Translations under genes and position numbers: made by a program
The notes under the pieces: model-generated
The model's database searches: none
What the model was told of the DNA's origin: nothing
Seen by the model: the letters and a program-made list of their open reading frames with translations, nothing else
NCBI GenBank assembly: GCA_039679645.1
Contig: JBDKUO010000039.1
Span: 1-64,000, forward strand
From: Armatimonadota bacterium
GTDB taxonomy: Bacteria; Armatimonadota; UBA5829
Direction of reading: 5' to 3'
DNA length: 64,000 nucleotides
Shown: positions 8,495 through 34,937 of the stretch, in pieces
Layout of the letters: the number at the start of each line of letters is the position of its first letter
Position numbering within the stretch: position 1 is the first letter of the stretch

Positions 8495-8767
8495 ATGAGT
8501 ATCGAGCGCGAGCAGGCCGAGACAGGGTTGATCTCAGCATCGACTGCTGATAAACTCAGCGGAGTGCTGAATGTTGCCGTGGACCTTTTGGAAGATATCC
8601 AAAAGGTGGTGGCCGGTGGTCGCCCCAAGGCCGTGAGGATCCGTTTCGGTGACAAAACAATAGCCGAATTGCCGATTGCACTTACGGCCGCTGCTGCTCT
8701 GACGGCCGGGTTGGCTGCCGTAATGCTGACTAAACTGGCCATAGACGTTGTGAATGATGAAGAATAA
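8495..8767 (+). CDS. DUF4342-like small membrane-associated protein
   Basis: A 90-residue protein. The C-terminal half, KAVRIRFGDKTIAELPIAL followed by an Ala/Leu-rich hydrophobic stretch (residues 60-82), resembles DUF4342 proteins, in which a basic beta segment precedes a membrane helix. The N-terminal half is a plain helix. No Shine-Dalgarno site precedes the ATG, and the upstream promoter would give an almost leaderless message. It overlaps or closely precedes the sigma factor gene, so the two are probably cotranscribed. A link to sigma-factor control is possible but unproven. Confidence 0.65.
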   Translation: MSIEREQAETGLISASTADKLSGVLNVAVDLLEDIQKVVAGGRPKAVRIRFGDKTIAELPIALTAAAALTAGLAAVMLTKLAIDVVNDEE

Positions 8768-8783
8768 TTATAGGGGTGAAGGC

Positions 8784-9452
8784 GTGCAGGACCAGTTCCA
8801 AGAAGAGCGAAGTCTCTCACAGTCGCGCTATGCCGTCCTGTCGGATCAGGATATCGTCTCCATCGCACAGCATGGCGACGAAAGAGCCTCTGAGTTTTTG
8901 CTCTACAAATATCGAAGCCTCGTAAGGACGAAAGTAAGATCATACTTCCTTATGGGAGCTGAGAAAGAAGACCTGCTGCAGATCGGAATGATCGGCTTGT
9001 GGCAGGCAATAGTCGATTACCGCCCCGAGAAGGATATTTCGTTCCTCTCATTTGCACGCATATGCATCGAGCGGCACGTCATCACGGCTATCAAGACAGC
9101 CACGCGCCGCAAACAGACTCCACTGAATACTTCCGTATCGCTCGAATATCCGTCTGAAGACAGCGACAGCGAATGGAACCTGGCCGACATCCTCATATCC
9201 GACGATACTATCGATCCTGAGGAACTTGTCCTAAAGCGCGAGGACAACTATCAACTGCAGGACATGCTCAGGCGTCTGCTTTCCGATTTCGAGTGGCAGG
9301 TGCTTTCGGGCTATCAGGTCGGCAAATCGTATCGTGAGATCGCCTGTGAGCTTCGCTGCAAGACCAAGTCGGTCGATAATGCATTGGCCCGCATCAAGCG
9401 GAAGATATCCTGTGCGCCTCACACTTGGCCCGGCATCACAGACAACAATTAA
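8784..9452 (+). CDS. RNA polymerase sigma factor, SigH/Spo0H-like
   Basis: A sigma-70 family protein of about 222 residues lacking region 1. Region 2 is clear (ASEFLLYKYRSLVRTKVRSY, DLLQIGMIGLWQAIVDYRP, SFLSFARICIERHVITAI), and region 4 follows (SYREIACELRCKTKSVDNALARIKRKI). The order and motifs fit Bacillus Spo0H and related factors rather than ECF factors. GTG 8784 is chosen because of AGGGGTGA upstream; ATG 8754 would overlap the previous gene. In Bacillus this factor controls transition-phase genes; here the regulon is unknown. Confidence 0.85.
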   Translation: MQDQFQEERSLSQSRYAVLSDQDIVSIAQHGDERASEFLLYKYRSLVRTKVRSYFLMGAEKEDLLQIGMIGLWQAIVDYRPEKDISFLSFARICIERHVITAIKTATRRKQTPLNTSVSLEYPSEDSDSEWNLADILISDDTIDPEELVLKREDNYQLQDMLRRLLSDFEWQVLSGYQVGKSYREIACELRCKTKSVDNALARIKRKISCAPHTWPGITDNN

Positions 9453-16340: not shown

Positions 16341-18749
16341 ATGGCTTATTTGGATCATGACAGTCAGGATGATATTTCACAAGCGCTGAGCGGTCTGCAA
16401 ATGCCTCGCAAGCTGCCGAGAATCCTGCCGGTGCTTCCGGTCAGGGACAGCGTCTACTTCCCGCATATGCTTTTCCCGCTCTTTCTGGGCAGAGAAAAGT
16501 CTATACGAGCGCTCGATCATGCGCTTGAAAAGAACCGGTATCTGCTTCTTGTCGCACAGAAAGAAGTCTCCGTCGAGGACCCGACACCTGACGACGTCTA
16601 CTGGGTCGGAACTGTTGTCGAGGTTATGCAGGTCCTGCGCGTGCCGGACGGCACAGTCCGCGTAACCCTCGAGGGCATCGAAAGGGCGCAGATCACAAAG
16701 TTTGTCCACACCGATCCGTTCTTCAAGGCCAGAGTCCGCATCTTGAGCAGCCGTGAAGTCACAGGGTCTAATGTGGAAGCCCTGATGCGCAGCGTCGTAT
16801 CGACATTCGATCAGATCGTTCAGAACCAGGGCGGCTATAACGGTCACCCGATTCCCCCTGAACTGATGATGAATGTGGCTGGTATAGAAGAGCCGGGCAA
16901 GCTTGTCGATACGATTATTCCTCATCTGCCCATCAAGACAGAGATCAAGCAAGACGTGCTGGAGACGGTCGACGTGATCGGACGGCTGGAAAAGCTCAAC
17001 ACACTGCTGCAAAAAGAGATGGAGGTGCTGGATATCCAGCGCAATATCCGCAGTCGTGTTGAAAAAGAAATGGGTGAAATGCAGCGTGAGTATATACTCC
17101 GCGAGCAGTTGAAGGCGATCCAGCAGGAGCTTGGCGACCGCGACGGACACACGAGCGAGGGCGATGATTATAAGGCAAGGATAGCCGAAGCCAAAATGCC
17201 CGAGGATGTCGAGTCCAAGGCGATGAAAGAGCTTGATCGGCTCGACAAGATGCCGTTTGCGTCGCCCGAGGGGGCCGTTATTCGCAATTATCTCGATTGG
17301 CTGATTGCGCTGCCCTGGGCTGCGTGGACAGAAGAGTCGCTGGATATAGCAGAGGCTGAGACAGTCCTGGACTCAGATCATTTCGGGCTGGACAAAGTCA
17401 AAGAACGCGTGCTCGAATTTCTGGCTGTCCGCAAGCTGGCAAAAGATATCAAGGGACCGATCCTGTGCTTTGTGGGACCTCCCGGTGTCGGCAAGACCAG
17501 CATCGGCAAGTCAATCGCAAAGTCCATGGGGCGCAAGTTTTACAGGCTCTCACTCGGCGGTGTGCGTGACGAGGCTGAAATTCGCGGGCACCGGCGCACG
17601 TATGTCGGCGCGCTCCCCGGCAGGATCATACAGGGGATCAAACAGGTAGGGGCTCGAAATCCCGTCTTCATGCTCGACGAGATAGACAAGATCGGCGCTG
17701 ATTTCAGGGGAGACCCGTCATCGGCTCTGCTGGAGGCTCTGGACCCTGAGCAGAACGATTCTTTCAGTGATCACTATCTTGAAGTGCCGTTCAATCTGCG
17801 GGATGTGATGTTTATCACCACCGCGAATGTGCTAGAAACGATTCCGCCGGCTCTGCGGGACAGAATGGAGATTATCAGGTTCTCCGGCTATATCGAGGAC
17901 GAGAAGCTGGAGATTGCAAAGCGTTTCATTCTTCCCAAACAGATAAAAGAAAACGGGCTAACGAGTGATCTGCTTTCCATTCAAGACTCGGCAATGCGGC
18001 ACATAATTCGTGACTACACGCGTGAAGCCGGAGTGCGCAACATGGAGCGCGCGGTCGGCACTGTCTGCCGCAAAGTCGCAAAGGAAGTCGCAACCGGAAA
18101 GAAGACAAAGACCACCGTCCGCGAGAAGGATGTCAAGACCTATCTGGGACCGCAGAAGTATCACTTTGGCCGGGCCGAGGAGAAGGATGAAGTGGCCGTC
18201 GTTACGGGTCTTGCATATACCGAGTTCGGCGGAGACGTAATCTCAATTGAGACGGTGCTCATGAAGTCGGATAAGGGCAATCTTATCTTGACGGGTCAGT
18301 TGGGCGATGTCATGAAGGAATCGGCTCAGGCCGCGCTGACATATGTCCGCTCTCGGGCGCGAATCCTGGGTATCGATGAGGAGTTCAGTTCGCGCACTGA
18401 TATACATATTCATGTTCCTGAGGGAGCTGTGCCCAAGGACGGGCCTTCCGCAGGTGTCACTATCGCTACGGCAATAGCGTCTGCGCTCACAAAGCGCCCA
18501 GTACGCAAAGACGTGGCAATGACCGGCGAGATTACTCTGCGGGGACGTGTCTTGCCCATAGGCGGGGTCAAAGAAAAAGTTCTCGCGGCTCACAGAGCAG
18601 GTATTCGGACTGTAATCCTGCCAAAGGAGAACGAGAACGATATTGAGGACATTCCATCGAATGTTCGGGACGAGATGACCTTCCATCTGGTCGATCATGC
18701 CGATGAAGTGTTGAACTTGGCTTTGATCCAGGTAACGGCTCAACCTTAG
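16341..18749 (+). CDS. lon: endopeptidase La (Lon protease)
   Basis: An 802-residue ATP-dependent serine protease of normal length. It has an N-terminal LonN substrate domain, an AAA+ module with Walker [10 protein letters not shown] near residue 378 and Walker [11 protein letters not shown], and a C-terminal protease domain with the catalytic Ser in DGPSAGVT (about 702) and the catalytic Lys in [14 protein letters not shown] (about 745). It removes misfolded and some regulatory proteins in the cytoplasm. It lies immediately after clpX. Confidence 0.96.
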
Positions 18750-18881: not shown

Positions 18882-19646
18882 TTATGGGCATGTAGGACAA
18901 GGCGTAGGACAAGGCGTAGGACATGTCGTCGGGCAAGGGGCAGGGCAGGTTGCTGCCGGACAGCTTGGTCCAGCCCCCACAGATGACGGACATACCGGAC
19001 AGACCTCGCCATACCTCGACAGCCAGTTTTGGAGAGCGACGATTTCCTTCGATGTCGAGTTCACAACAATCCTTGCCTGATCACGAAGTCCCGGCACGGT
19101 CGCCTTGGATAGCGCAAGCTGTGCCGCATCCCTGTTTTGTTCCAGTAAGCCGATCATTGTCTTGACATATGGAACGTTATAGTCGCCGCCGCAGCACTGC
19201 TTCAGACTGTCCATTACACCCTGAATCCTGTTATAATCCGCGTTCAGTGTGCACATTCCCGCTTTTTGTGCCCAGTAAGAGAGCTTTTGGCTCTGCTTAG
19301 TTTGCTCATAACGAATCTTGCCTGACAAGTCTCTTATGCCTTTGTCTGTAGACAACTGTATTCCCTGAGTGGCAAGCGCAGCGATATCACTGTGCTGTTG
19401 ATACATCAGTCTCATAAATGCCTGGTCGAAATCGCATCCACACAGATCTGCCAGGTCTGCACACGGCCCAGCGCCGATATTGGCCGGCTCGGCAGGGCAT
19501 GTCGGACATGTTGTCGTCGGACATGGTGCCGGGCAAGTACTAGGGCATGGCGCAGGGCACGCCGGTTCACACCCACATTCTGCGAATGCTATTGTTGGAA
19601 CGGCTGCAAACATCAACGCCAGCAACGTGACGCCTAGATATTTCAT
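18882..19646 (-). CDS. secreted Cys-Pro tetrapeptide-tailed protein (paralogue A)
   Basis: A 254-residue exported protein with signal peptide (MKYLGVTLLALMFAAVPTIA, cleaved near AFA-E). Mature protein: a Cys-Pro-rich N-terminal run, a helical core in two tandem halves (FDQAFMRLMYQQHSDIAALA and VPYVKTMIGLLEQNRDAAQLA), then a C-terminal tail of C-P-T-P-like tetrapeptides. The core weakly resembles ferritin-like DUF305/DUF4142 domains but lacks most of their histidines. Its closest relative in the window is 24435-25136. An AGGAGG site precedes the ATG. Metal binding or disulfide cross-linking by the tails is conceivable but only inferred. Confidence 0.8.
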   Translation of the reverse strand: MKYLGVTLLALMFAAVPTIAFAECGCEPACPAPCPSTCPAPCPTTTCPTCPAEPANIGAGPCADLADLCGCDFDQAFMRLMYQQHSDIAALATQGIQLSTDKGIRDLSGKIRYEQTKQSQKLSYWAQKAGMCTLNADYNRIQGVMDSLKQCCGGDYNVPYVKTMIGLLEQNRDAAQLALSKATVPGLRDQARIVVNSTSKEIVALQNWLSRYGEVCPVCPSSVGAGPSCPAATCPAPCPTTCPTPCPTPCPTCP

Positions 19647-19782
19647 TTTCTAATGCCTCCTGTCGTTTTCAATATGCCCCGGTATCTTTGTTCCCTCTCA
19701 CGCCAATCAACAAACGGTCTGATATTGTGCAATTGAAACATAGATCGGTTACCAAGTATGCATACAACTTTGTGCAGGCAGC

Positions 19783-19813
19783 AAAAAGCCCGGCGAACAA
19801 AACTCGCCGGGCC
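19783..19813 (-). terminator. intrinsic terminator
   Basis: On the minus strand GCCCGGCGA pairs with TCGCCGGGC around TTTTGT and is followed by TTTTTGC. It lies 26 bases after the stop of the gene ending at 19839. Confidence 0.88.
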
Positions 19814-19838
19814 GATAAATGCGATCTAATAGAATTTT

Positions 19839-20510
19839 CTACTCTGTACTAGTTACTCTTCCTTCTTTATCTATCCAGCCATTCTTGCATATCTGGTCTG
19901 TTTTCTGAGATCTAACGGTTCCATACACTTTGAATCTGCCGCTTGGTTTGAGCTGTAGCATCTTTACTGCTCCCGGCCCGACATATTCGAAGCGCAGGTC
20001 AGAGCCGAACGCTCCCCATGATCCCTTCATACTTCCGTCCGTTCTGAAAAGCAGTCTTGCAGGTTCGCCATCCTCGGTTTCCCAATCGGTTACAGGCTGC
20101 TTAGCTTCAAATTGAGCGACTGCCTGGCAGAACTTGAGGTTTTCTTTAGCGCGCTGCACTTCACTCTCAGGCAGGCTGCCCCAGTCAAGAGTTTTTGTTG
20201 ATGCGATATGACGCGCGATGTCGCCTTCACTTATGGGAAGGCTGAATGCTTCATCCGTTTTTACCTTTCCCACAGGCAATATTTTCGCCTTGCCCTGGAC
20301 GTTGTATTTCTTTGTGGCCGGATCATAACTGACTGTCAACGGACCTGTCCCGACATTTTCGAAGTAATAAGGCAGGCCGAAATCTATCCTACACCAAGCT
20401 CCGGGTTCTCCATCCGTCATCAGGTCCTTTGCGGTGCCTGCAGTCGGGCAAGCAGCCAATAATACGATTCCAGCAGCAAATAACATCAACTTCCGGTTCA
20501 AATGCAACAT
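19839..20510 (-). CDS. secreted protein, free-standing copy of the C-terminal domain of its neighbour
   Basis: A 223-residue exported protein (signal MLHLNRKLMLFAAGIVLLAA; LLAAC may be a lipobox). By eye it aligns along its length with the last 220 residues of the upstream 1061-aa protein: GLPYYFENVGTGPLTV versus GLPYWLENVGTGGLTI, YNVQGKAKILPVGKV versus YEVQGEAKLLPTGRI, MDGEPARLL-like and LKPSGRF segments, and the ends NGWIDKEGRVTSTE versus DGWIDKDGNVISTQ. I know no family name. The spacing and shared strand suggest an operon with the sigma/FecR pair. Confidence 0.75.
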   Translation of the reverse strand: MLHLNRKLMLFAAGIVLLAACPTAGTAKDLMTDGEPGAWCRIDFGLPYYFENVGTGPLTVSYDPATKKYNVQGKAKILPVGKVKTDEAFSLPISEGDIARHIASTKTLDWGSLPESEVQRAKENLKFCQAVAQFEAKQPVTDWETEDGEPARLLFRTDGSMKGSWGAFGSDLRFEYVGPGAVKMLQLKPSGRFKVYGTVRSQKTDQICKNGWIDKEGRVTSTE

Positions 20511-20523
20511 ACTTATTTCCTCC

Positions 20524-23500
20524 TCAGTTTTTTTGTGTCGATATTACATTTCCATCCTTGTCAATCCAGCCATCCGTGCAGACCTGGCCGGTTTGCTGAA
20601 CTTTTACAGTGCCGGTCACGTTGAATCTGCCGCTGGGCTTGAGTTGATAGAGATATATCTTTTCCGATCCGATCAACTCAAATCGCAGGTCAGATCCGAT
20701 TGCGCCGCATGATCCTCTCGGAGAACCGCAGTATAGAAGCCTTGCTGGTTCACCATCCATAGTCTTGAAGATATTGCCTTTGCCATCAAGCTCAGTAACC
20801 GGCAGACCTGCCTCAAACTTGGCGACTGCCCGGCAGAAATCTAAGTCAGCAAATGATTGTTCAGTATCGTCGGATGACAAGTTGCCCCAGTCCAGTCTGC
20901 CTGCCGAATCGATATCTTGTGCGATGTCACCTTCATTGTCTGCAATCTTGAGGCTCTCATTTGTGTAGATCCTGCCTGTCGGCAGAAGTTTTGCCTCTCC
21001 CTGCACCTCATATGTGTTGCCGATCATATGATGGATGATCGTCAAGCCGCCAGTTCCTACATTCTCGAGCCAGTAGGGAAGACCGTTAGCAACCTTGCAC
21101 ACTGCGCCAGGCTTAGCGTCAGTAATCAAATGAGGATTAACAATCTGATGGTCATATTCGCTCCATGTAATTGTGTTGTCTGTATGAAGCGGGCAACTGA
21201 CAATTACTTGGCCGACCTCAGGCTCCTTACCATCAGCAGGAATGTTGTAGACATATGCTTCGGCGGCTTGATCAACTGTCCCTGGACATGTTCCGAGCAT
21301 CATTACATGCTTTTTGTCGCTGCTTGAAAGCCAGTCGGACTGCCAGCACAAATTCGACGCCCATTCAAGTCCTGTGGAAAGATTTGGCGGAAACTGATGA
21401 TACTTTGCCGCTGCGTTTACTAATGCATCACCAAGATAGCAGATACGTTTGGTACAGCAATCGAAAAGGGCTTCACTGTCTGGTCGCCATGTTTTTTTAT
21501 CTGCAGCTTCGGAGTATTTCAAAACATCATCCGTACACAGCCCGGATAAAGGATAATCCCATACCAGCTTTGAAAAGATGTTCGCCGCGCGACCGTAGCT
21601 GCGGTCTTCAGCATCTAGATTGCCTTCGAACGCATAAATGTTTCCCATCGCATATTGGAAGATAGCTTCATTAATTGCTGAGCAAGCCGCATCAGACTGG
21701 GCATTATCTTTGTTCGTAAGCTGATTTGCCGTGCAGGCTTGGCTGAATGTTTTCTTTACTCCCGATCCGTCCGAGCCGACTAAAACTGTGTTAGCCGTGC
21801 CTGTTCGATAATTTTGATCTGTTACGAAGATCAGATTACCGGTCGAATCCCACGATGCTTTTGAGATATTATCTTGCTGAGAACAATACACCTCTCTGGC
21901 TCCAGTGCCATCGGAGTTCACGACGCATACCTTGTTGTCTCCTGTAATATATAGTATGCGAGAGCCGTCTGGCGACCAGCGTGGTCTTGTTGCCCATACG
22001 TTTTCAGGTGACAACCTTACTGCATCGGCTCTTCTGGTCAAGTCCAGAGCAAATATTCCACCGCTCATCGGCACACCTGCATACCATGAGCCTCCTTTCT
22101 GAAAGTCACTGGAGAATGCTATTTTTTTGCCGTTCGGTGAGAAACAGGCACCTGCTCCATTGATACCAATATCTTGTGTTTGTCCGGTTTGCGTGTCGAT
22201 GATAACCAGGTTGTGCTCGTTTGTATAGCCTTGACCGGATGAAATCGCAATATGTCTGCTGTCAGGAGCCCAGGCTGGTGCAGTCTTGATATTTCCGCTG
22301 AGTAATTTAGTGACCTCCAGCGTCTTTCTGTCATACAGCCACAACCCGCTCCCCGCGTCTTTGTAGCTGTCGGCATTCGGATAGTAAGTTCCGCTGAAAG
22401 CCACCAGTGTCGGGTCTGGAGCGAAAGCAGAATAAAATGGCCGATAAGATTCGGGCAGATCGAATTGAATGCTCTTTCCCGTTGCAGCGTCCAAAAGCAA
22501 AACTCTGTCTTTTATGATTGGATGCCCGTTGCCGGTATTTGCTGACCGGTTCTTGATATCTGGTGTGGTCCATAGTGCGCTGATCAGACTGATACTCAGC
22601 CATCGCTCGCCCGGCAGCCATGGTCCTATTTCGGTAGCCCATCCAATGAAACTTGCTATACGGTGTCTGTTGGTGCCATCAGATTTTACAGTCCATATTT
22701 CGGTGATAAGTCCTTTTTCACGATTTACTGTATATGCGATATCCCCAAAGTCGGACTGATAATCGCCCCGGCCATGATACCAGGAGGTCTCTTTGTAGGT
22801 GTTGACAGCCTTGCCCGGCTTTGGCGCCAGGTATGCCATCAGCAATGATTGACTCCCTGCATTTACCAATGCGTCGCCATGCCTGTTGGACAGTCTTACT
22901 TTGCCCTCCACAACAGTCACAGCCACTGCGTCATCTCGCACCACATTCGTATCTACCACAGTGCCCAGCAGCACTACACGACCGGCGGGTGTGTCTATCC
23001 GCGCGATCTCCTTGTCATGGTTGGCGCAATATAACCTGCCGCGGACAATCTTCGCAACCTTGGCGGATGTAAAGAGAAGCTCTGTGTTGGAATCGAGGTT
23101 GATCTCACTGCCCTTTAGCGTGACGAGAGTGGCGCGGCCACCTTTCCCGGTCCTGATTGCAGTTCCTACCGCGATTCTTTCGCCTTTCGCGATAAATATT
23201 CCCTGCCCATTTGTAACGTTCCCTATAACATTTGTAAGAGCCACAACCGGCGGGCCATAGCAAACCGGCTTATGAGCCGTTTTTACAGTATCTTCCGCAT
23301 ATGGTTTCTTTCCCGGCAAATTAATATTGTCCGTCGTCCCGGCTGTATGATGCATGCAATTTCCGGTGTTTGGGTGTCCTGCCGATGCAACAGCGTTCTT
23401 CCGAATGTGTGCGGCAGGTCTCTTTGTGTTATTTGTGCTGAGCGCAATCTGCTTATGCACCGGGGCCGTCGGTATATCCTTTGGCCCCGAATACATAAGC

Positions 23501-23709
23501 CTGCCCGCCACCAGAATAGTTGCAATCAAAGCCGCACATGCCCCAAGGCTGAATGTCCAGCGGATTATCGGGCTGCGACGCCGCGCGGCCACTATATCAC
23601 GCGTCCTTTTCTGCAGTTCGCGTCGATAGCTCTCTCGCATTTTTATATCCTCGTAGTGCTCATTGAGTAGTTCTACAGGATCGTTTGGAGGAAGTTTATT
23701 GCTGCTCAT
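20524..23709 (-). CDS. membrane FecR-domain/TolB-propeller protein, putative anti-sigma regulator
   Basis: A 1061-residue protein. Residues 1-45 are charged and cytoplasmic, about 48-70 form one membrane helix, and about 115-240 form a FecR domain (GTAIRTGKGGRATLVTLKG, ARIDTPAGRVVLLGTVVDTN). A WD40/TolB-like propeller follows (APAWAPDSRHIAISS, RPRWSPDGSRILYITG), then a Cys-containing helical region, and a C-terminal domain duplicated in the next gene. ATG 23709 has GGAGGTGA 5 bases upstream and overlaps the sigma gene by 14 bases. That coupling and the FecR domain suggest control of the ECF factor. No zinc-finger anti-sigma domain is visible. Confidence 0.8.
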   Translation of the reverse strand: MSSNKLPPNDPVELLNEHYEDIKMRESYRRELQKRTRDIVAARRRSPIIRWTFSLGACAALIATILVAGRLMYSGPKDIPTAPVHKQIALSTNNTKRPAAHIRKNAVASAGHPNTGNCMHHTAGTTDNINLPGKKPYAEDTVKTAHKPVCYGPPVVALTNVIGNVTNGQGIFIAKGERIAVGTAIRTGKGGRATLVTLKGSEINLDSNTELLFTSAKVAKIVRGRLYCANHDKEIARIDTPAGRVVLLGTVVDTNVVRDDAVAVTVVEGKVRLSNRHGDALVNAGSQSLLMAYLAPKPGKAVNTYKETSWYHGRGDYQSDFGDIAYTVNREKGLITEIWTVKSDGTNRHRIASFIGWATEIGPWLPGERWLSISLISALWTTPDIKNRSANTGNGHPIIKDRVLLLDAATGKSIQFDLPESYRPFYSAFAPDPTLVAFSGTYYPNADSYKDAGSGLWLYDRKTLEVTKLLSGNIKTAPAWAPDSRHIAISSGQGYTNEHNLVIIDTQTGQTQDIGINGAGACFSPNGKKIAFSSDFQKGGSWYAGVPMSGGIFALDLTRRADAVRLSPENVWATRPRWSPDGSRILYITGDNKVCVVNSDGTGAREVYCSQQDNISKASWDSTGNLIFVTDQNYRTGTANTVLVGSDGSGVKKTFSQACTANQLTNKDNAQSDAACSAINEAIFQYAMGNIYAFEGNLDAEDRSYGRAANIFSKLVWDYPLSGLCTDDVLKYSEAADKKTWRPDSEALFDCCTKRICYLGDALVNAAAKYHQFPPNLSTGLEWASNLCWQSDWLSSSDKKHVMMLGTCPGTVDQAAEAYVYNIPADGKEPEVGQVIVSCPLHTDNTITWSEYDHQIVNPHLITDAKPGAVCKVANGLPYWLENVGTGGLTIIHHMIGNTYEVQGEAKLLPTGRIYTNESLKIADNEGDIAQDIDSAGRLDWGNLSSDDTEQSFADLDFCRAVAKFEAGLPVTELDGKGNIFKTMDGEPARLLYCGSPRGSCGAIGSDLRFELIGSEKIYLYQLKPSGRFNVTGTVKVQQTGQVCTDGWIDKDGNVISTQKN

Positions 23710-24331
23710 GATTGTCACCTCCAGGATCATCGGCCATTAGTTTACCAAATGCCGTTCTAAACGCCGTGCGCGCCCTTACAAGGAGCGATTCAACTGCCTT
23801 TGTCGTGCTCCCAGTCCTTTGTGCCAGTTCGTCTGTAGTGTAGCCCTCTACATATTTCGATATAAGAGCATCGGCCTGTCTTTTCGGCAAATCAGCGAGG
23901 GCACGGTTGACCGCATACTTAAGATCGGGCAATGCGGTTTCCGATATACAGAACTCCTCAGTCAAAGGCTCTTCGATATGACGAGCGCGACAAAAGTGGG
24001 CCAGACGATTGCGAGCAATGCCATGCAACCATGCGTCGAGGTCGCCGCGTTTGGGGTCGTACTTGCCGATGCTTTTCGCGGCAGTCAGCATTATATCCGA
24101 GCATAAATCCTCAGCGTCGGCATGGTTTGCGTTTAGATGATGATATGCAAAACGATATGCCCACGGCGCATAGCGATCAAAGAAATCATCCCAGGCGCCG
24201 GTGTCTCCTGCGGCAATTTTACGCGAAAGAATTTCATCTTCATTCATCATCTCCGCGCTTGCGGCAATATCCGGCCGTCTGTCCAGTGTCACCTCAATCT
24301 CCAATAGGCACCTCGGTTTACGATCGTTCAT
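23696..24331 (-). CDS. ECF-type RNA polymerase sigma factor
   Basis: A sigma-70 family protein of up to 211 residues. Region 2 covers FFDRYAPWAYRFAYHHLN with DAEDLCSDIMLTAAKSIGKY and AWLHGIARNRLAHFCR, and region 4 follows (LPKRQADALISKYVEGYTTDELAQRTGSTTKAVESLLVRAR as its recognition part). The start is uncertain: ATG 24331 has no ribosome site, while GTG near 24292 follows TTGGAG and an ATG pair near 24250 follows GCGGAG. The FecR/propeller protein overlaps its 3' end, as in sigma/anti-sigma pairs. Confidence 0.88.
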   Translation of the reverse strand: MNDRKPRCLLEIEVTLDRRPDIAASAEMMNEDEILSRKIAAGDTGAWDDFFDRYAPWAYRFAYHHLNANHADAEDLCSDIMLTAAKSIGKYDPKRGDLDAWLHGIARNRLAHFCRARHIEEPLTEEFCISETALPDLKYAVNRALADLPKRQADALISKYVEGYTTDELAQRTGSTTKAVESLLVRARTAFRTAFGKLMADDPGGDNHEQQ

Positions 24332-24375
24332 ATATTAGTTGCCGATGAGAGATTGAAATCCTTCGGTGGGTGTGC

Positions 24376-24407
24376 AAAAAAGCGCCCCGGAAAATATCCG
24401 AGGCGCT
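24376..24407 (-). terminator. intrinsic terminator
   Basis: On the minus strand AGCGCCTCGGA pairs with TCCGGGGCGCT and runs directly into TTTTTTG. It ends the transcript of paralogue B and insulates the sigma gene downstream. Confidence 0.9.
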
Positions 24408-24434
24408 ATGAGCTGTCCGATATGTCGCAGGCCA

Positions 24435-25136
24435 CTACGGGCACGGCTTGGGACATGGTGTCGGACAGGGCGTTGGACATGTAGTTGGACACGTTGTCGA
24501 CGGGCATACCTTATCCCCAATCCACTTGACCAACGAATTGATTTCTTTTTGAGTTGCAGTCAGCGAGCAGGACGCCGCATCACGGAGCTGTTTTGTCGGT
24601 GACTGTGCTACAGCCAGTTGGTCCGCGTCACGCTGCTGTGAGAGCAGCATCGACAGTGTCCTTGCATATTCTGTGTTGAAATTGCAGTCATCACACTTTG
24701 GCAGTGTGTTTACAATTGCCTGCACTTTCGCATAGTCGATCGGCAGCGGACAGATATTACAGGTTCTTGCCCAAGCAGACAATTTTTCGTTCATTGATGT
24801 CTGTTCGTCACGAACTCTGTTCGACAGGTCTCTAAGGTTCTTGTCCGTCGTCTGCTCTATGCCTTGAGTCGTAAACGCAGCGATGGTGGTATGCAGTTGA
24901 TACATGTTTTGCATATATGCTTTGTCAAAATCAGCGCTGCAGAGATTCTGCAGATTCGACGCTGGCCCGGCGCCCAGAGCTGCAGATACGGCCTGCGATG
25001 CCGCCGGGCATCCCGATATACACGGTGGACATGCCGGTTTGCATTCCTGGGTAGCCGGCGGACATGTTTGCGCGGACACTGCCGCTGCTGCGAGAACAAT
25101 GGCGAGAGTGAACATAATTATGTGCACGTGTCGCAT
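24435..25136 (-). CDS. secreted Cys-Pro tetrapeptide-tailed protein (paralogue B)
   Basis: A 233-residue exported protein with signal peptide (MRHVHIIMFTLAIVLAAAAV, cleaved near SAQ). It shares the whole design of 18882-19646: Cys-Pro-rich N-terminal run, GAGP linker, two tandem helical halves (FDKAYMQNMYQLHTTIAAF; TEYARTLSMLLSQQRDADQLA), conserved LRDLS and KEINSLVKWIGDK, and a tail of CPTP/CPTT/CPKP tetrapeptides. The core looks ferritin-like (DUF305/DUF4142) only weakly. AGGGAGGT precedes ATG 25136. It has its own terminator and lies between the ECF sigma gene and the RseB-like pair. Confidence 0.8.
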   Translation of the reverse strand: MRHVHIIMFTLAIVLAAAAVSAQTCPPATQECKPACPPCISGCPAASQAVSAALGAGPASNLQNLCSADFDKAYMQNMYQLHTTIAAFTTQGIEQTTDKNLRDLSNRVRDEQTSMNEKLSAWARTCNICPLPIDYAKVQAIVNTLPKCDDCNFNTEYARTLSMLLSQQRDADQLAVAQSPTKQLRDAASCSLTATQKEINSLVKWIGDKVCPSTTCPTTCPTPCPTPCPKPCP

Positions 25137-25221
25137 ACTATACCTCCCTAAGTCAGTAGTTTGCGTAAACCATAATTACCCGTCACGTATAAACAACAAA
25201 CAGTCAATTAACGTGCAGGCG

Positions 25222-25269
25222 CTCACTATCTCTGTGAGATTGACAGCTTGAACCATAAGCTCATATAAT
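25222..25269 (+). promoter_or_regulatory. sigma-70 promoter with adjacent palindrome before the RseB-like operon
   Basis: TTGACA (25240-25245), 18-base spacer, TATAAT (25264-25269). A palindrome CTCAC-N7-GTGAG (25222-25238) abuts the -35 box and could be an operator. Confidence 0.75.
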
Positions 25270-25299
25270 TGCCGTGGCAGTAGGTCACTGGAGGCTATT

Positions 25300-25539
25300 T
25301 TGGGTCCGGTTAAAAATGAATCAAAATCACAGCGTCGCACAAGGAAGATTGCATTATGTGTATGGACTCTTGCCGTAGCGCTGTGGGCAGTCTTTGCTAT
25401 AAATGACAGCGGGACCGAACCTAAACTGCCGGTTGCGGATGCCTCTGTCAGAAGTATCGTAATAGAACATCTGGCTTACGAGTCGCATAACCCATTGTTC
25501 GGCGAGACCAATATCAGCGTGAGCAAAGATGATAAGTAA
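25300..25539 (+). CDS. small membrane protein resembling the C-terminal part of an RseA-type anti-sigma factor
   Basis: A 79-residue protein starting at TTG 25300 with GGAGG 6 bases upstream. A basic N-terminus (KSQRRTRK) leads into one membrane helix (about residues 18-35), then an outer stretch, RSIVIEHLAYESHNPLFGE. This stretch resembles the segment after the membrane helix in zinc-finger anti-sigma factors, but the whole cytoplasmic sigma-binding zinc domain is absent. It overlaps the RseB-like gene by 11 bases. In RseA/RseB systems RseB binds the periplasmic part of RseA; a similar partnership is inferred here. Confidence 0.55.
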   Translation: MGPVKNESKSQRRTRKIALCVWTLAVALWAVFAINDSGTEPKLPVADASVRSIVIEHLAYESHNPLFGETNISVSKDDK

Positions 25540-26284
25540 GCTCAAAATACCGCTGATTGCGGCTGCTGTGCTCGCGCTCGGCATCATAATCTATCCGTAT
25601 CCACCGCGCGTAAACGGTAATGCGTTGCTTCACAAGGTCCTTCTTGCCCAGCGCAGCGTAGAATATACGGCTGTGCAGGAGCATACGAGCGTAATGCTCG
25701 GCAGCAATATCCGCTCCACTATACATGTTAAAAACGATTGCCGGACAGCCTCGACGGACGCCAAACTGGAGTCACAAATATTCCGCAACTATATTCCTCT
25801 TGTCGAAGGGCAGTATCGCATCGCCGGGCGAGATGCATGGGTGCTTCGATTAAAGCCAAAGCTCAAGCACATGCCGTGGAAGCAGATCTGGGTCGACAAA
25901 ACAAAATTTGTTGTGCTTGCGTCACGTGATTGGACAGCCTACAATGTCATCAAACGCTCCATGAAGACCATATCTATTTCATTTGACAGCGAACCCATGC
26001 GCGAAACAAATGCCGAGAGAACAAATCATATCGCAAAGTGCGATATACCCAGGCCGTCATATATGCTGCATGGTTTCGTGCCGACAAGCGCTGACAAAGG
26101 CACTCTGGTCTACTCCGATGGCCTCTACACAATCACCATAACCACATCTGACAAGTCCGCCTGCAGGAAGAATAAAGCACTCGACTGGGGGCAGGGGACA
26201 ATCTACTCCACTGGGCGCTACACTGTCGTCGCCGACCTTCCCGCAGATATGATCGAGCGTATTGCACGTTCGATCACCCCATAG
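25529..26284 (+). CDS. RseB/MucB-like periplasmic regulator
   Basis: A 251-residue protein with an N-terminal membrane or signal segment (IPLIAAAVLALGIIIYPY) and the two-part RseB layout. The LolA-like N-terminal domain is YRIAGRDAWVLRLKP with KQIWVDKTKFVVLAS, matching the family's AGR and WLD features. The smaller C-terminal domain is LHGFVPTSADKGTLVYSDGLYTI and YTVVADLPADMIERIARSI. RseB protects an anti-sigma factor from proteolysis until envelope stress. The gene overlaps the 79-aa membrane protein; the ECF sigma gene lies 1.2 kb away, divergently transcribed. Confidence 0.7.
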   Translation: MISKLKIPLIAAAVLALGIIIYPYPPRVNGNALLHKVLLAQRSVEYTAVQEHTSVMLGSNIRSTIHVKNDCRTASTDAKLESQIFRNYIPLVEGQYRIAGRDAWVLRLKPKLKHMPWKQIWVDKTKFVVLASRDWTAYNVIKRSMKTISISFDSEPMRETNAERTNHIAKCDIPRPSYMLHGFVPTSADKGTLVYSDGLYTITITTSDKSACRKNKALDWGQGTIYSTGRYTVVADLPADMIERIARSITP

Positions 26285-26443: not shown

Positions 26444-26677
26444 GTGACACTTCAAGATGAAGTACTTGCTGGGCTTGTCAACAATGCGATAAACCAGGAC
26501 AAACGTCTGGCCGGTCAGGCGATAGCGGTGCGAGTGGCAAACGGCGATGTATTCCTCAAGGGCATAGTCGATACCGAGGAAGATAAGAACCTTGCTCACC
26601 TGGTCGCAGGCGGTGTCGCAGGCACCCGGCAGGTCATTGTAGAAGAACTACGGGTAAAAGAGGCGCCGAATGAGTGA
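26444..26677 (+). CDS. BON-domain protein (single domain)
   Basis: A 77-residue protein made of one BON domain: a helix (DEVLAGLVNNAINQDKRL), then IAVRVANGDVFLKGIVDTEEDKNLAHLV with the characteristic central glycines. BON domains are thought to bind phospholipid or other ligands and occur in OsmY and in accessory positions. No signal peptide is seen. GTG 26444 is the start. Its end overlaps the GH94 start by 8 bases, so the two are translationally coupled. Confidence 0.8.
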   Translation: MTLQDEVLAGLVNNAINQDKRLAGQAIAVRVANGDVFLKGIVDTEEDKNLAHLVAGGVAGTRQVIVEELRVKEAPNE

Positions 26678-29111
26678 CGGACACTTCTCCGAGGACGGCA
26701 GGGAATACATAATTACTCGCCCCGATACGCCGCGCCCATGGGCAAACTATCTTACCAACGGCCGTTATTGCGCCATATGTTCGCAGACAGGCGGCGGGCA
26801 TTCGTTCTTTGAGACCTCCGGCTATAACCGCGTGACCCGCGAGTTCCCGCAGACCGTTGTCCTGCAGGACAGACCCGGCAGATATGTCTATTTGAGGGAT
26901 GCCGAGACGGGAGAGTATTGGACCGCAAACTGGCAGCCGGTTTGTGACGACACCTCGAACTTCGAAGCGCGCCATGGCATAGGATATACGCAAATCGTCC
27001 GATCGAGCCATGGCGTCGAGAGCAGCATTACATACTACGTGCCCCCGCGCGATGATATCGAGGTATGGATGGTGTCCATCAAGAATATCTCGGACAAGAA
27101 ACGCGAAATCCAGGCATTTCCATACGTCAAATGGGACCTGGCAAACTATATATTCAATGCTACTGAATCCAATTTCTCAATACTGTTCAATGAAGCAAGC
27201 GTCGAAGACAGCACGATCTTTGTCAGCATCCGCTACTGGAACATAACCTCGGGCTCGACTGCCAATCCGAATGCAAGGTGGGATAAATGGGCATTTATGA
27301 CATCCAGCGCGCTCGTGGAGGCGCATGACTGCTTTGAAGAAGAGTTTATGGGAATGTATCACAACTACTCGAACCCTCGTGCAATAGAGGAGGGGCAGCT
27401 TCGCAACAGTCAGGGTCTTGGCCGGGATATAATGGCCTCGCTGCAGCACAGGTTTGTCCTTGAGCCCGGCGAGGAGGCGAAGTTCAATGTTCTGGTGGGC
27501 GTGGTCTTTCACAAGGAAGCCGCCTGGAGCCTTCGTGACAGGTATAATGAGTGGGATGAAGCCGAGCGTGGTCTTGCCGAAGTAAACCGCTACTGGGAGG
27601 GCTATCTTGGCCGGACAAACGCCGAAACCCCCAGCCGCGAGTTCAATCTGTCGTTCAACATCTGGAATAAGTATCAGGCCTGGGTGACATCGCGGTGGAC
27701 CAGGATGGACTCGTATTATGTCGGCGGCGGTTCGATCATCGGATTCCGAGACAGTTGGCAGGACATGCTTGCTATTCTTCCAAATGATCTTGCCTGGGCC
27801 AGAGAGCGCGTAATTTATATGCTCGAACACCAGTTTCCTGACGGCAGCACTCTGCACAACTGGGACCCTCTCACCAACATCGGTGTAAAGACGGGCCACT
27901 CCGACGACCCGATGTGGCTGGTGCTCGGTGTGATGGAGTATCTGAAAGAGTCGGGCGACCTGATGTTTCTTGACGAGGCCGTCAAATACTACGACAGCGG
28001 CTCAGAGACCGTCCGCATGCATGTGCTCAGAGCAATTGACTATACTCTGGACCATATGAGCGAGCGCGGCATTCCTCTAATTATGGCAGCCGATTGGAAC
28101 GACGGCCTGGACTATGTCGGCAGGCAGGGACGCGGCGAGAGCGCCATGGTGGCGGCGCATCTAGCTTGGATGCTCCGTGAAGTGGCTGCGCTGATGTGGT
28201 TTGTAGGCAGCGATGCGCAGGCTCAGAAATATGTGGAAGAAAGAGACAAGCTTATAAGAAATATCAACCTGCATCTGTGGGACGGTGAATGGTATATCAG
28301 AGGCACGCGTGATGACGGCGAGGCGTTCGGTTCGTCGCGAAATATCGAGGGCCGCATATATATAAACGCGCAGTCCTGGATGATTATTGGAACTGCAGCG
28401 CCTAAAAACCGCGCTCTGCGCTGTATGAACTCAGTATGCAAGCACCTGAACACTCCATACGGCCCGGCATTGTTCCTGCCCGCCTATCGTCAGCCCGACC
28501 CGAAACTTGGAATTATAACGCGCTTTGCTCCAGGCACAAAAGAAAACGGCACTGTCTTTTGCCATCCCGTTGCGTGGGCAATAATGGCGGAGTGTATTCT
28601 CGGCAGGGGCGATCAGGCTTATGAGTATTGGAAAGAAGTCTCGTTCGTCCACCGCGGCGAGCAGGATGAAAACACATATAAGGTCGATCCGTATGTGTAT
28701 TGCGAATATATCCATGGTCCCGATTCAAAATACTACGGCCAGGGTGAGTTCAGTTGGATGACCGGCGCCGCTGCGTGGATGTGGAAAGTCGCTCTCGACT
28801 GGATACTTGGCGTTCGTGCGGAGATAAGGGGTCTGATGATCGATCCGTGCATACCATCTGAATGGGATTCGTATAGAGTTGTCCGGCGGTTCAGACGGGC
28901 GACATATGAAGTGACTGTCGAAAACCCCGAGCATGTATCGCACGGCGTGAAGGAGATATACGTCGACGGCATGAGCCACGATTCTTATCTTCTGCCGATA
29001 TTTCCCGGCGGCGAAACGCATCAGATACGTGTTGTTATGGGGGAACCCACAGTTCAGATTGAGATGACGGCTGAGATAATATCCGAAGAGATCAGTGTAT
29101 CGACTGAATGA
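26670..29111 (+). CDS. GH94-family glycoside phosphorylase-like protein
   Basis: An 813-residue cytoplasmic protein of the cellobiose/chitobiose phosphorylase family (GH94). The N-terminal beta-sandwich opens with RPWANYLTNGRYCAICSQTG. The (alpha/alpha)6 barrel contains GFRDSWQDMLAI and the catalytic-acid segment AADWNDGLDYVG near residues 472-482. The C-terminal part has DPCIPSEWD and IYVDG. Family members split beta-linked disaccharides with phosphate to give a sugar 1-phosphate. The exact disaccharide is not predictable. It starts inside the BON gene and ends exactly where the convergent MgtC-family gene ends. Confidence 0.88.
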   Translation: MSDGHFSEDGREYIITRPDTPRPWANYLTNGRYCAICSQTGGGHSFFETSGYNRVTREFPQTVVLQDRPGRYVYLRDAETGEYWTANWQPVCDDTSNFEARHGIGYTQIVRSSHGVESSITYYVPPRDDIEVWMVSIKNISDKKREIQAFPYVKWDLANYIFNATESNFSILFNEASVEDSTIFVSIRYWNITSGSTANPNARWDKWAFMTSSALVEAHDCFEEEFMGMYHNYSNPRAIEEGQLRNSQGLGRDIMASLQHRFVLEPGEEAKFNVLVGVVFHKEAAWSLRDRYNEWDEAERGLAEVNRYWEGYLGRTNAETPSREFNLSFNIWNKYQAWVTSRWTRMDSYYVGGGSIIGFRDSWQDMLAILPNDLAWARERVIYMLEHQFPDGSTLHNWDPLTNIGVKTGHSDDPMWLVLGVMEYLKESGDLMFLDEAVKYYDSGSETVRMHVLRAIDYTLDHMSERGIPLIMAADWNDGLDYVGRQGRGESAMVAAHLAWMLREVAALMWFVGSDAQAQKYVEERDKLIRNINLHLWDGEWYIRGTRDDGEAFGSSRNIEGRIYINAQSWMIIGTAAPKNRALRCMNSVCKHLNTPYGPALFLPAYRQPDPKLGIITRFAPGTKENGTVFCHPVAWAIMAECILGRGDQAYEYWKEVSFVHRGEQDENTYKVDPYVYCEYIHGPDSKYYGQGEFSWMTGAAAWMWKVALDWILGVRAEIRGLMIDPCIPSEWDSYRVVRRFRRATYEVTVENPEHVSHGVKEIYVDGMSHDSYLLPIFPGGETHQIRVVMGEPTVQIEMTAEIISEEISVSTE

Positions 29112-33629: not shown

Positions 33630-33640
33630 CTCTCCACTCT
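33604..33640. repeat. word repeat (GAGTGGAGAG type) at the rseP/ispG junction
   Basis: On the coding (minus) strand AGAGTGGAGAGTTGAGAGTG continues into GAGAGTAAAGAG. It spans the rseP stop region, the ispG ribosome site, the ispG start and its first codons. Confidence 0.75.
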
Positions 33641-34937
33641 ACTGCGGCACCAGACCCTGGGATATCTTGGACAGGTCCGACCAGATTACAGTCACGAATA
33701 TCGCTGCGATAATAAATAAGCCGATCATGGTCACTGTCTGCATCTGCTCACGCGTGAGGCGTTTTCTGCGCACTGCTTCAACCGCAAGTATCGCCAGATG
33801 ACCGCCATCAACTACAGGGATGGGGACCAGGTTTATGACGGCAAGGCTCATACTCAGCATGCCCAGCAATTGTACCAGCGAATATGGACCGCGTGCCACA
33901 GATGACTGTGTTATCTTGGCGATAAGCACGGGACCACCGATATTCTCAGCTATTTTTTTGCTGGTAAGAGACTGAACGATCTCCACAACAATATCCTTTG
34001 TGAGGATAAGGCCATTGGTTGCAGATTCTATAAAGCCCGCCTTTTTAAGCGTCTGTTCGGGCACAAACCCTAGTAGGCCTATCGCCATAAACTTTTCCGA
34101 TTTACTGATCGGCTTTGCAGTCAGCGTAATGGTCTTGCCATTTCTGTCTATCTCAAGCCTTGCTTGTTTGGTGCCGAGATGCTTTACAGTATTTGCAAAA
34201 CCAGCGCCGTCTCTGATCTTATTGCCATTTACAGAGATGATCTTGTCATCCTCTTGAATACCTGCTTTTTGCGCAGCCGACTTGTCCGCGACTGCATCTA
34301 CGGTGCCCTGCTTGCCCTCAGGAAATGACCACATTGCATTGAGATAGATTATCGTCCATCGCGGGGCAGCAGATTTTGTAAAGGTTTTTCCGTTGCGCAT
34401 AACGGTCAGAGTCAACTTCTTGCCGGGGTTATCGTGGATGAGCTTGGTCATATCCTTGCCGCCCTTAACGGGTTTCTGATCGATGGCGAGTATTCGGTCT
34501 CCCGTGCGGATGCCGATTTTGGCAGCCACTGATTGAGGATTAACCATAGCGACCTTGTTTTCTGTGTTGCCGGTCGGGAATCCCCAGAATACGCCCATAG
34601 TCACAAACACGATTACTGCAAGCACGAAGCTGGCGAACGGCCCTGCGAAGATCACCAGCGCACGCTTCCATATAGCCTGCGCTTGAAAACCATCCGCTAT
34701 ATCTTCCTCACCCGGTTCCATACCGGCAAGCTTCACAAACCCGCCCAATGGAAATGGATGAATCGTATATTCCGTGGCGCCGCGCTTAATAAGCGTAATC
34801 AGCTTCGGACCAAAGCCGAATGCGAACTCATCTACGCGAATTCCGACAAGCCGGGCAACAGTGAAGTGACCCAGCTCATGAAACATCACCAATATTGCAA
34901 ATAAGAAAACCAGCGCTATAGCCGTTTGAATTATCAA
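33639..34937 (-). CDS. rseP: RIP metalloprotease RseP (site-2 protease)
   Basis: A 432-residue inner-membrane zinc protease. The active site is HELGH (His20, Glu21, His24) in the first helix, and the third ligand motif is VVDGGHLAIL near the C-terminus. Between them lie two PDZ-like domains (GIRTGDRILAIDQKPV and GIQEDDKIISVNGNKI). It cleaves membrane-spanning anti-sigma factors and spent signal peptides, which makes it a plausible processing enzyme for the anti-sigma-like proteins at 20.5-25.5 kb. It starts at TTG 34937 behind GGGGAG. Confidence 0.93.
   Translation of the reverse strand: MIIQTAIALVFLFAILVMFHELGHFTVARLVGIRVDEFAFGFGPKLITLIKRGATEYTIHPFPLGGFVKLAGMEPGEEDIADGFQAQAIWKRALVIFAGPFASFVLAVIVFVTMGVFWGFPTGNTENKVAMVNPQSVAAKIGIRTGDRILAIDQKPVKGGKDMTKLIHDNPGKKLTLTVMRNGKTFTKSAAPRWTIIYLNAMWSFPEGKQGTVDAVADKSAAQKAGIQEDDKIISVNGNKIRDGAGFANTVKHLGTKQARLEIDRNGKTITLTAKPISKSEKFMAIGLLGFVPEQTLKKAGFIESATNGLILTKDIVVEIVQSLTSKKIAENIGGPVLIAKITQSSVARGPYSLVQLLGMLSMSLAVINLVPIPVVDGGHLAILAVEAVRRKRLTREQMQTVTMIGLFIIAAIFVTVIWSDLSKISQGLVPQ

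Follow-up and report, generated by a model that had tools for sequence, protein, structure and literature searches.

In FecI/FecR pairs, such as Escherichia coli FecIR and Leptospira LIC_12757/LIC_12756, an extracytoplasmic function (ECF) sigma factor gene lies beside a gene encoding a single-pass membrane protein with a short cytoplasmic N-terminus and a periplasmic FecR-type domain. Specifically, the FecR-like LIC_12756 binds and inhibits its ECF factor LIC_12757, i.e., it is an anti-sigma factor (PMC12155086). FecI-like systems are exceptions to ECF autoregulation (PMC8103513). In RseA/RseB and MucA/MucB, the regulators of sigma-E/AlgU, a protein of RseB/MucB fold is encoded with a single-transmembrane (TM) partner. 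Finally, CopM, a DUF305 protein, exemplifies the periplasmic copper-binding proteins of Synechocystis (PMC4335983). Here, we analyze a locus with likenesses to all three: positions 18,882 to 26,284 of a 64,000-nucleotide stretch (the window) of contig JBDKUO010000039.1 from an Armatimonadota bacterium (assembly GCA_039679645.1). The first-pass annotation of this DNA proposed that seven genes here form one undescribed extracytoplasmic signaling island. Our analysis makes it highly probable that the locus consists of two modules, one of them a self-contained inner cassette of ECF sigma factor, sensor, and free sensor domain. The seven-gene island is a juxtaposition of two independent gene groups.

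The genes, boundaries, and terminators on which the argument depends are given below. This genome is designated G000, and its nearest relative, from the same genus, is G012 (ClpP 98% and Lon 93% identical).

16341..18749, plus strand: lon protease gene, the anchor of tig-clpP-clpX-lon, an ancestral block found in the same order beside B in G012 (L056), G011 (L058), and G004 (L068)
18882..19646, minus strand: protein B, a secreted helical protein of DUF305/DUF4142 type (Pfam DUF305 9e-12, DUF4142 1.3e-7)
19647..19764, minus strand: conserved upstream region of B, by local alignment with the G012 A–B spacer from TATGCATACTYGGTAA to the start of B
19765..24375, minus strand: inserted cassette of about 4.6 kb, boundaries set by comparison with G012, plus or minus a few bases
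19787..19813, minus strand: intrinsic-terminator-like hairpin closing the cassette operon (12-bp stem and T run)
19839..20510, minus strand: free copy of the sensor's C-terminal tip domain, 223 amino acids, 53% identical to the last ~195 amino acids of the sensor
20524..23730, minus strand: anti-sigma/sensor protein (Pfam FecR 1.1e-10, PD40 2.9e-12), its chassis aligned in eight genomes
23696..24307, minus strand: ECF sigma factor (Pfam Sigma70_r2 at residues 50-116 and Sigma70_r4_2 at 140-188; no other domain)
24381..24407, minus strand: hairpin resembling an intrinsic terminator, downstream of A and setting it apart from the cassette (11-bp stem and T run); a similar hairpin follows A in G012
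24435..25136, minus strand: protein A, paralog of B (Pfam DUF4142 4.6e-8, DUF305 3.4e-7)
25300..25539, plus strand: 79-amino-acid single-TM protein (the stub), with its own Shine-Dalgarno sequence and no Pfam match
25529..26284, plus strand: RseB/MucB-fold protein, by family, profile, and fold matches; BON-GH94 follows it in most of the family members examined
26444..29111, plus strand: genes for a BON-domain protein and a GH94-type glycosidase, which anchor the RseB-like gene in synteny comparisons

All seven open reading frames are present at about the positions originally assigned to them, and the labels ECF sigma factor, FecR/TolB-propeller protein, and Cys-Pro pair (A and B) agree with Pfam/NCBIfam. 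The free copy of the FecR/propeller C-terminal domain is likewise borne out.

Gene order in relatives separates the two modules. In G012, tig-clpP-clpX-lon is followed by the oppositely oriented genes B and A, 170 bp apart, and then by the divergent stub-RseB-BON-GH94 genes. G013 has the order GH94-BON-RseB-stub and then A and B, adjacent to one another; in G011, A and B are again adjacent, next to lon. Neither an ECF relative (E<=1e-15) nor the tip domain is found anywhere in the genomes of G012 and G013 (98% complete). G014 carries the sigma/FecR pair on contig 91, an A/B-like gene on contig 66, and RseB-BON-GH94 on contig 105. In G011, the sigma/FecR pair, A/B, and RseB are on contigs 188/92, 200, and 215, respectively; as these contigs are short, separation is judged from the neighbors, which are lon beside A–B and other genes beside sigma. 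Thus, the expectation of conserved synteny as one unit fails, with the modules apart in G014 and G011 and with A–B and RseB retained without the cassette in G012 and G013.

The insertion site can be placed to within a few bases. The A–B spacers of G012, G013, and G011 all lack the cassette. At one junction, the stop codon and terminator hairpin of A match G012 in the spacer alignment, and at the other, the upstream region of B aligns with the G012 A–B spacer from TATGCATACTTGGTAA (19764, minus strand). On this highly probable reading, module 1 is an ancestral block of lon, B, and A, with the divergent TM stub and RseB-fold gene and then BON-GH94, and module 2 is a mobile or translocated cassette, placed in this genome between the terminator of A and the promoter of B. 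The two-module structure, the insertion site, the recurrence of the sigma/FecR pair, the distinct conserved promoter elements, and the tip duplication can all be read from the sequence itself. No recombinase gene lies in the insert. In G207, the gene immediately next to the ECF/FecR cassette (L124 1-1791) encodes a serine recombinase (Resolvase 2e-29, Recombinase); we treat this arrangement as a lead on mobility only.

The promoters divide the locus in the same manner. A shared promoter had been predicted upstream of 25136, 19646, and 24331. None was found, and three different promoter types are present instead.

19690..19715, minus strand: promoter element of B, of SigB-like type, GTTTGT-N14-GGGAAC; conserved in G012, G013, and the A/B homologs of G004 and G006, where it lies at -67 to -70 relative to the start codon
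24338..24364, minus strand: putative cassette promoter, GAAGGATTT-N12-GGCAAC, conserved upstream of the sigma gene at fixed spacing in seven of seven readable genomes (G011, masked at the site, was left out)
25176..25201, minus strand: promoter element of A, likewise of SigB-like type, GTTTGT-N14-GGGTAA; conserved at -65 in both G012 and G013 and present also in G011
25240..25269, plus strand: sigma-70 promoter of stub-RseB, TTGACA-N18-TATAAT (12/12), with hexamers kept and spacers diverged in G012 and G013

The element preceding the sigma gene varies little (GAGGG in G014, GATCC in G219, GGCAAT in G243). In all seven readable genomes, an RTG lies at a fixed position six bases after GGCAAC. 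Because this RTG is out of frame with the sigma gene in G014 and G243, it is better read as a transcription start than as a start codon, and it is the probable +1 of the cassette transcript. Pattern searches supplied the motif statistics. Within three mismatches, the window contains, besides the site itself, a single match inside lon. Across the whole genome, the element has a single perfect match and no one-mismatch match; its seven two-mismatch matches are similar in number to those of genomes that lack the cassette. When the two-mismatch sites of G000, G014, G011, and G243 were read singly, nearly all fell inside coding regions. Given the single perfect site and the location of nearly all the other matches read within genes, the predicted regulon in this genome is the operon itself. 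We note that on G011 contig 154 (L139), a one-mismatch element at 909-935 lies just upstream of a gene whose secreted product carries an HEIGH motif and matches no Pfam family, making that protein a candidate regulon member in G011.

A and B have in common the element GTTTGY-N14/15-GGGWA at -65 to -70 (GTTTGG in one case; GTTTCT in the G006 homolog), and it is kept in G013, G004, and G006 while the spacer has diverged. This element resembles SigB-class promoters, and a SigBFG-type sigma factor is encoded in this genome (283 bits, above the curated cut-off). With the sigma element standing only before the sigma gene, and A/B and stub-RseB each carrying another conserved promoter type, the proposal of a co-regulated island is not sustained. 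Upstream-region alignment and element searches both speak against an ECF promoter common to A, B, and sigma, and that idea was rejected.

What, then, could still unite the seven genes? If the ECF sigma factor drove A, B, and stub-RseB together with its own operon, one would expect the compactness that is in fact seen: the genes are close together, those for A, sigma, FecR, the tip copy, and B are all on the minus strand, and every product except sigma is exported or membrane-bound. Such an island is nonetheless very improbable. Module 1 exists without module 2 in two relatives and the modules are separate in two others, terminator-like hairpins stand at both ends of the cassette, the sigma-type element is missing before A, B, and the stub even at three mismatches, and A/B and stub-RseB have other conserved promoters. 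A weaker form of coupling, in which modules of separate origin have become newly connected here by read-through or by a looser sigma promoter that puts B, and perhaps A, under the cassette, draws on the position of B, which directly follows the tip copy at a distance of 192 bp and in the same orientation. However, the hairpin that closes the cassette (19813-19787) has a 12-bp stem, and B retains its complete ancestral promoter region; we regard new coupling as improbable. Least probable of all is that the cassette belonged to the ancestral order and was lost by G012, G013, and G011, which would make the grouping old. The cassette is indeed common to G000, G011, and G014 within one genus, but in G011 and G014 it occupies other loci with other neighbors, and, since all three other readable A–B pairs are adjacent, this history needs several similar losses plus moves. 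We therefore favor two modules, with a self-contained inner cassette. Recognizing them keeps a chance neighborhood from being recorded as a new signaling island. The earlier suggestion that the pieces jointly point to sensing outside the membrane holds for the inner part, in which the ECF factor, FecR/propeller protein, and free C-terminal domain appear to make up a real sensing cassette, and not for the whole island as a unit.

Several observations weigh against parts of this interpretation. The insertion is seen in one genome only. The assembly is in 69 contigs, so mis-assembly is formally possible, though both junctions are clean. Coupling by read-through is still conceivable, as A, the cassette, and B share a strand. 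All of the conserved promoter elements are deductions from sequence, and GGCAAC is not a canonical ECF -10 element, which would carry CGT (the canonical -35 carries AAC). G014 has no free tip copy, and the free copy is therefore not obligatory. Finally, GTTTGY-N14/15-GGGWAH is not enriched genome-wide (10 sites versus 7 in a reversed-pattern control), and the A/B element is missing before two C9/C3 paralogs and the G014 homolog. Because of these absences and the lack of enrichment, we take the SigB-type reading of the A/B promoters as a supported inference. Site counts do not support GTTTG-N14/15-GGGWA as the mark of a large regulon.

The inner cassette varies the ECF/FecR kind by its unusual modular sensor tips. 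As in FecI/FecR pairs, an ECF sigma gene lies beside the gene for a single-pass protein with a short cytoplasmic N-terminus and a FecR-type domain outside the membrane. Unlike in those pairs, the extracytoplasmic part of the sensor is ~1000 amino acids long and includes a propeller and a variable tip, a Pfam scan up to E=1 gives no DUF4880 or STN match, and the cassette has a putative autoregulatory promoter. Also unlike FecI/FecR systems, the operon, which the terminator-like hairpin closes after the tip copy, has no gene for a TonB-dependent receptor; among the cassette neighbors scanned in the window, G014, G011, G207, and G243, all belong to other families or have none assigned.

Specifically, the sensor consists of a cytoplasmic N-terminus of ~50 amino acids, a TM helix, a FecR domain, a PD40/TolB-type propeller, a helical and Cys-containing region, and the tip (20533-21132). 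For the sigma gene, TTG at 24307 is a more likely start codon than the upstream ATG at 24331, because three genomes conserve LEIEVTL, preceded by GAGGTG/GAGGTA. Met8 is the probable start of the FecR protein, which would make its overlap with the sigma gene ~14 rather than 35 nucleotides.

A profile of three of these sigma factors, searched against 291 genomes of the phylum, retrieved eight members at E<1e-79, and the next best hit was at 2e-24, a gap that defines a sharply bounded subgroup. In a scan of 84,980 species genomes, which was pattern-based and not exhaustive, close relatives of the sigma factor were found only in Armatimonadota. Each of the eight sigma genes is followed by an overlapping or abutting FecR/propeller gene (in G211 and G011, a contig end truncates it). 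The pair thus occurs in seven further Armatimonadota genomes, with different neighbors, except that the closely related G210 and G211 both have it beside ileS. No FecR/propeller partner was present beside more distant ECF homologs of the phylum in the three neighborhoods read. In the aligned sensors, the chassis is common, comprising the ~50-amino-acid cytoplasmic N-terminus, TM helix, FecR domain, propeller, and Cys-containing region, while the tips differ. The tip of this genome's sensor is present in G000, G014, and G011; G207 has a TPR-like stretch and an F5/8 type C domain (1.2e-14), G243 has a tail without an assigned family, and G210 has no tip. The gene after the sensor in G011 encodes two Big_5 immunoglobulin-like domains and the last ~80 amino acids of the tip. 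Counting the free tip of G000, two of the three genomes that have this tip encode a secreted tip-bearing protein after the sensor. A literature search for FecR/propeller or PD40 anti-sigma factors and for Armatimonadetes ECF factors returned nothing relevant in the collection of papers searched. The inner cassette represents a real and apparently undescribed ECF/anti-sigma subgroup, in which the chassis is constant and the C-terminal tips differ by lineage. It is possible, and we offer this tentatively, that the subgroup is confined to Armatimonadota and combines its own promoter signature with interchangeable sensor tips and, in some lineages, a co-transcribed free tip that titrates ligand and so provides built-in negative feedback. 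The part worth study is this sharply bounded subgroup, with its constant chassis, exchangeable tips, and highly specific promoter element, and its promoter and sigma factor lend themselves to direct testing in a laboratory host.

The free tip protein has a signal peptide with a lipobox-like LAAC motif, as read from its residues, and is a putative lipoprotein. It matches no Pfam/NCBIfam family and, used as the sole query in the genome contig scan, found no match. A structure model of the tip (predicted local distance difference test score, pLDDT, 79) has no significant match in the PDB (best Foldseek E 0.3, best Z 3.8), a result that does not show a new fold. Weak internal repetition is detectable (score 43, versus a mean of 23 and a maximum of 35 in 300 shuffles), and the tip, both in the sensor (20533-21132) and free (19839-20510), seems to be an internal duplication of a ~60-amino-acid beta unit around a helical hairpin.

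The hypothesis is that the ~50-amino-acid cytoplasmic tail of the FecR/propeller protein would bind the sigma factor and hold it at the membrane. Sensing of a ligand or surface stress by the FecR, propeller, and tip domains would lead to release of sigma, plausibly aided by a site-2 protease. An RseP-type gene at 33639-34937 encodes a product with Peptidase_M50 and two PDZ domains, and E. coli RseP is described in PMC8144685 as cleaving FecR. Freed sigma would act at GAAGGATTT-N12-GGCAAC, with its own operon as the main target. Damping or tuning of the signal might then come from the free tip lipoprotein, through binding of the ligand or partner that the sensor recognizes, although we consider such a feedback role doubtful. 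Sigma binding, autoregulation, proteolytic release, the ligand, feedback, and the function of A and B are all inferred.

Proteins A and B resemble CopM in matching DUF305/DUF4142 above the Pfam cut-offs and in having N-terminal signal-peptide-like stretches. B contains 23 Cys, with Cys-Pro-rich N- and C-terminal stretches, and A contains 17, with a Cys-Pro-rich C-terminal tail. Orthologs in G012, G013, and G011 are 66-88% identical for B and 71-82% for A. Unlike CopM, the pair scores only 35 and 18 bits against the CopM equivalog (cut-off 90), has QH/LH at the position of the HH motif, and is poor in His and Met, with its 17-23 Cys arranged in Cys-Pro repeats. Lacking both the CopM score and the HH motif, A and B cannot be credited with CopM-type copper binding. 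Given their own SigB-like promoters, the two are probably Cys-rich secreted proteins induced by stress, with general-stress metal binding or redox buffering as probable roles.

The divergent gene pair recalls RseA/RseB and MucA/MucB in joining an RseB/MucB fold to a single-TM partner. Unlike in those systems, the stub has no anti-sigma or RseA domain, the promoter is of sigma-70 type, and the stub-RseB operons of relatives contain no sigma gene (none lies beside them in G012 and G013). The RseB label rested at first on a weak MucB/RseB family match. A profile built from relatives of the protein matches RseB at E=4e-8, and Foldseek with its structure model returned RseB/MucB for all of the top 15 hits (E to 3.3e-14), with LolA/LprG much weaker. 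The RseB identity of the 25529-26284 product is secure. Its neighbor had been called an "RseA stub", a label that is not supported: the protein has no RseA match at E<=1 and is complete, with ~15 residues before its TM helix. The G012 relative is full-length and 72% identical, with its ATG at the same place, and relatives occur also in G013, G011, and G014. With start, Shine-Dalgarno sequence, and length conserved, truncation of an RseA was rejected as unsupported.

Three further observations concern neighboring genes. At 8754-9452, the window encodes a further protein of the sigma-70 family, with region 2 and a weakly matching region 4, which is SigH-like and unrelated to the cassette. Downstream of the sigma cassette of G014, on the same strand (L012 4448-7389), are genes for a signal-peptide protein without a family and for an FlgT_N-domain protein. 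Finally, the BON and GH94 genes accompany the RseB-like gene from genus to genus within the family, the RseB-BON-GH94 order being kept in G012, G013, G014, G006, G004, G003, and G002. This linkage suggests an unrecognized functional link of the RseB-fold protein with a glycosidase.

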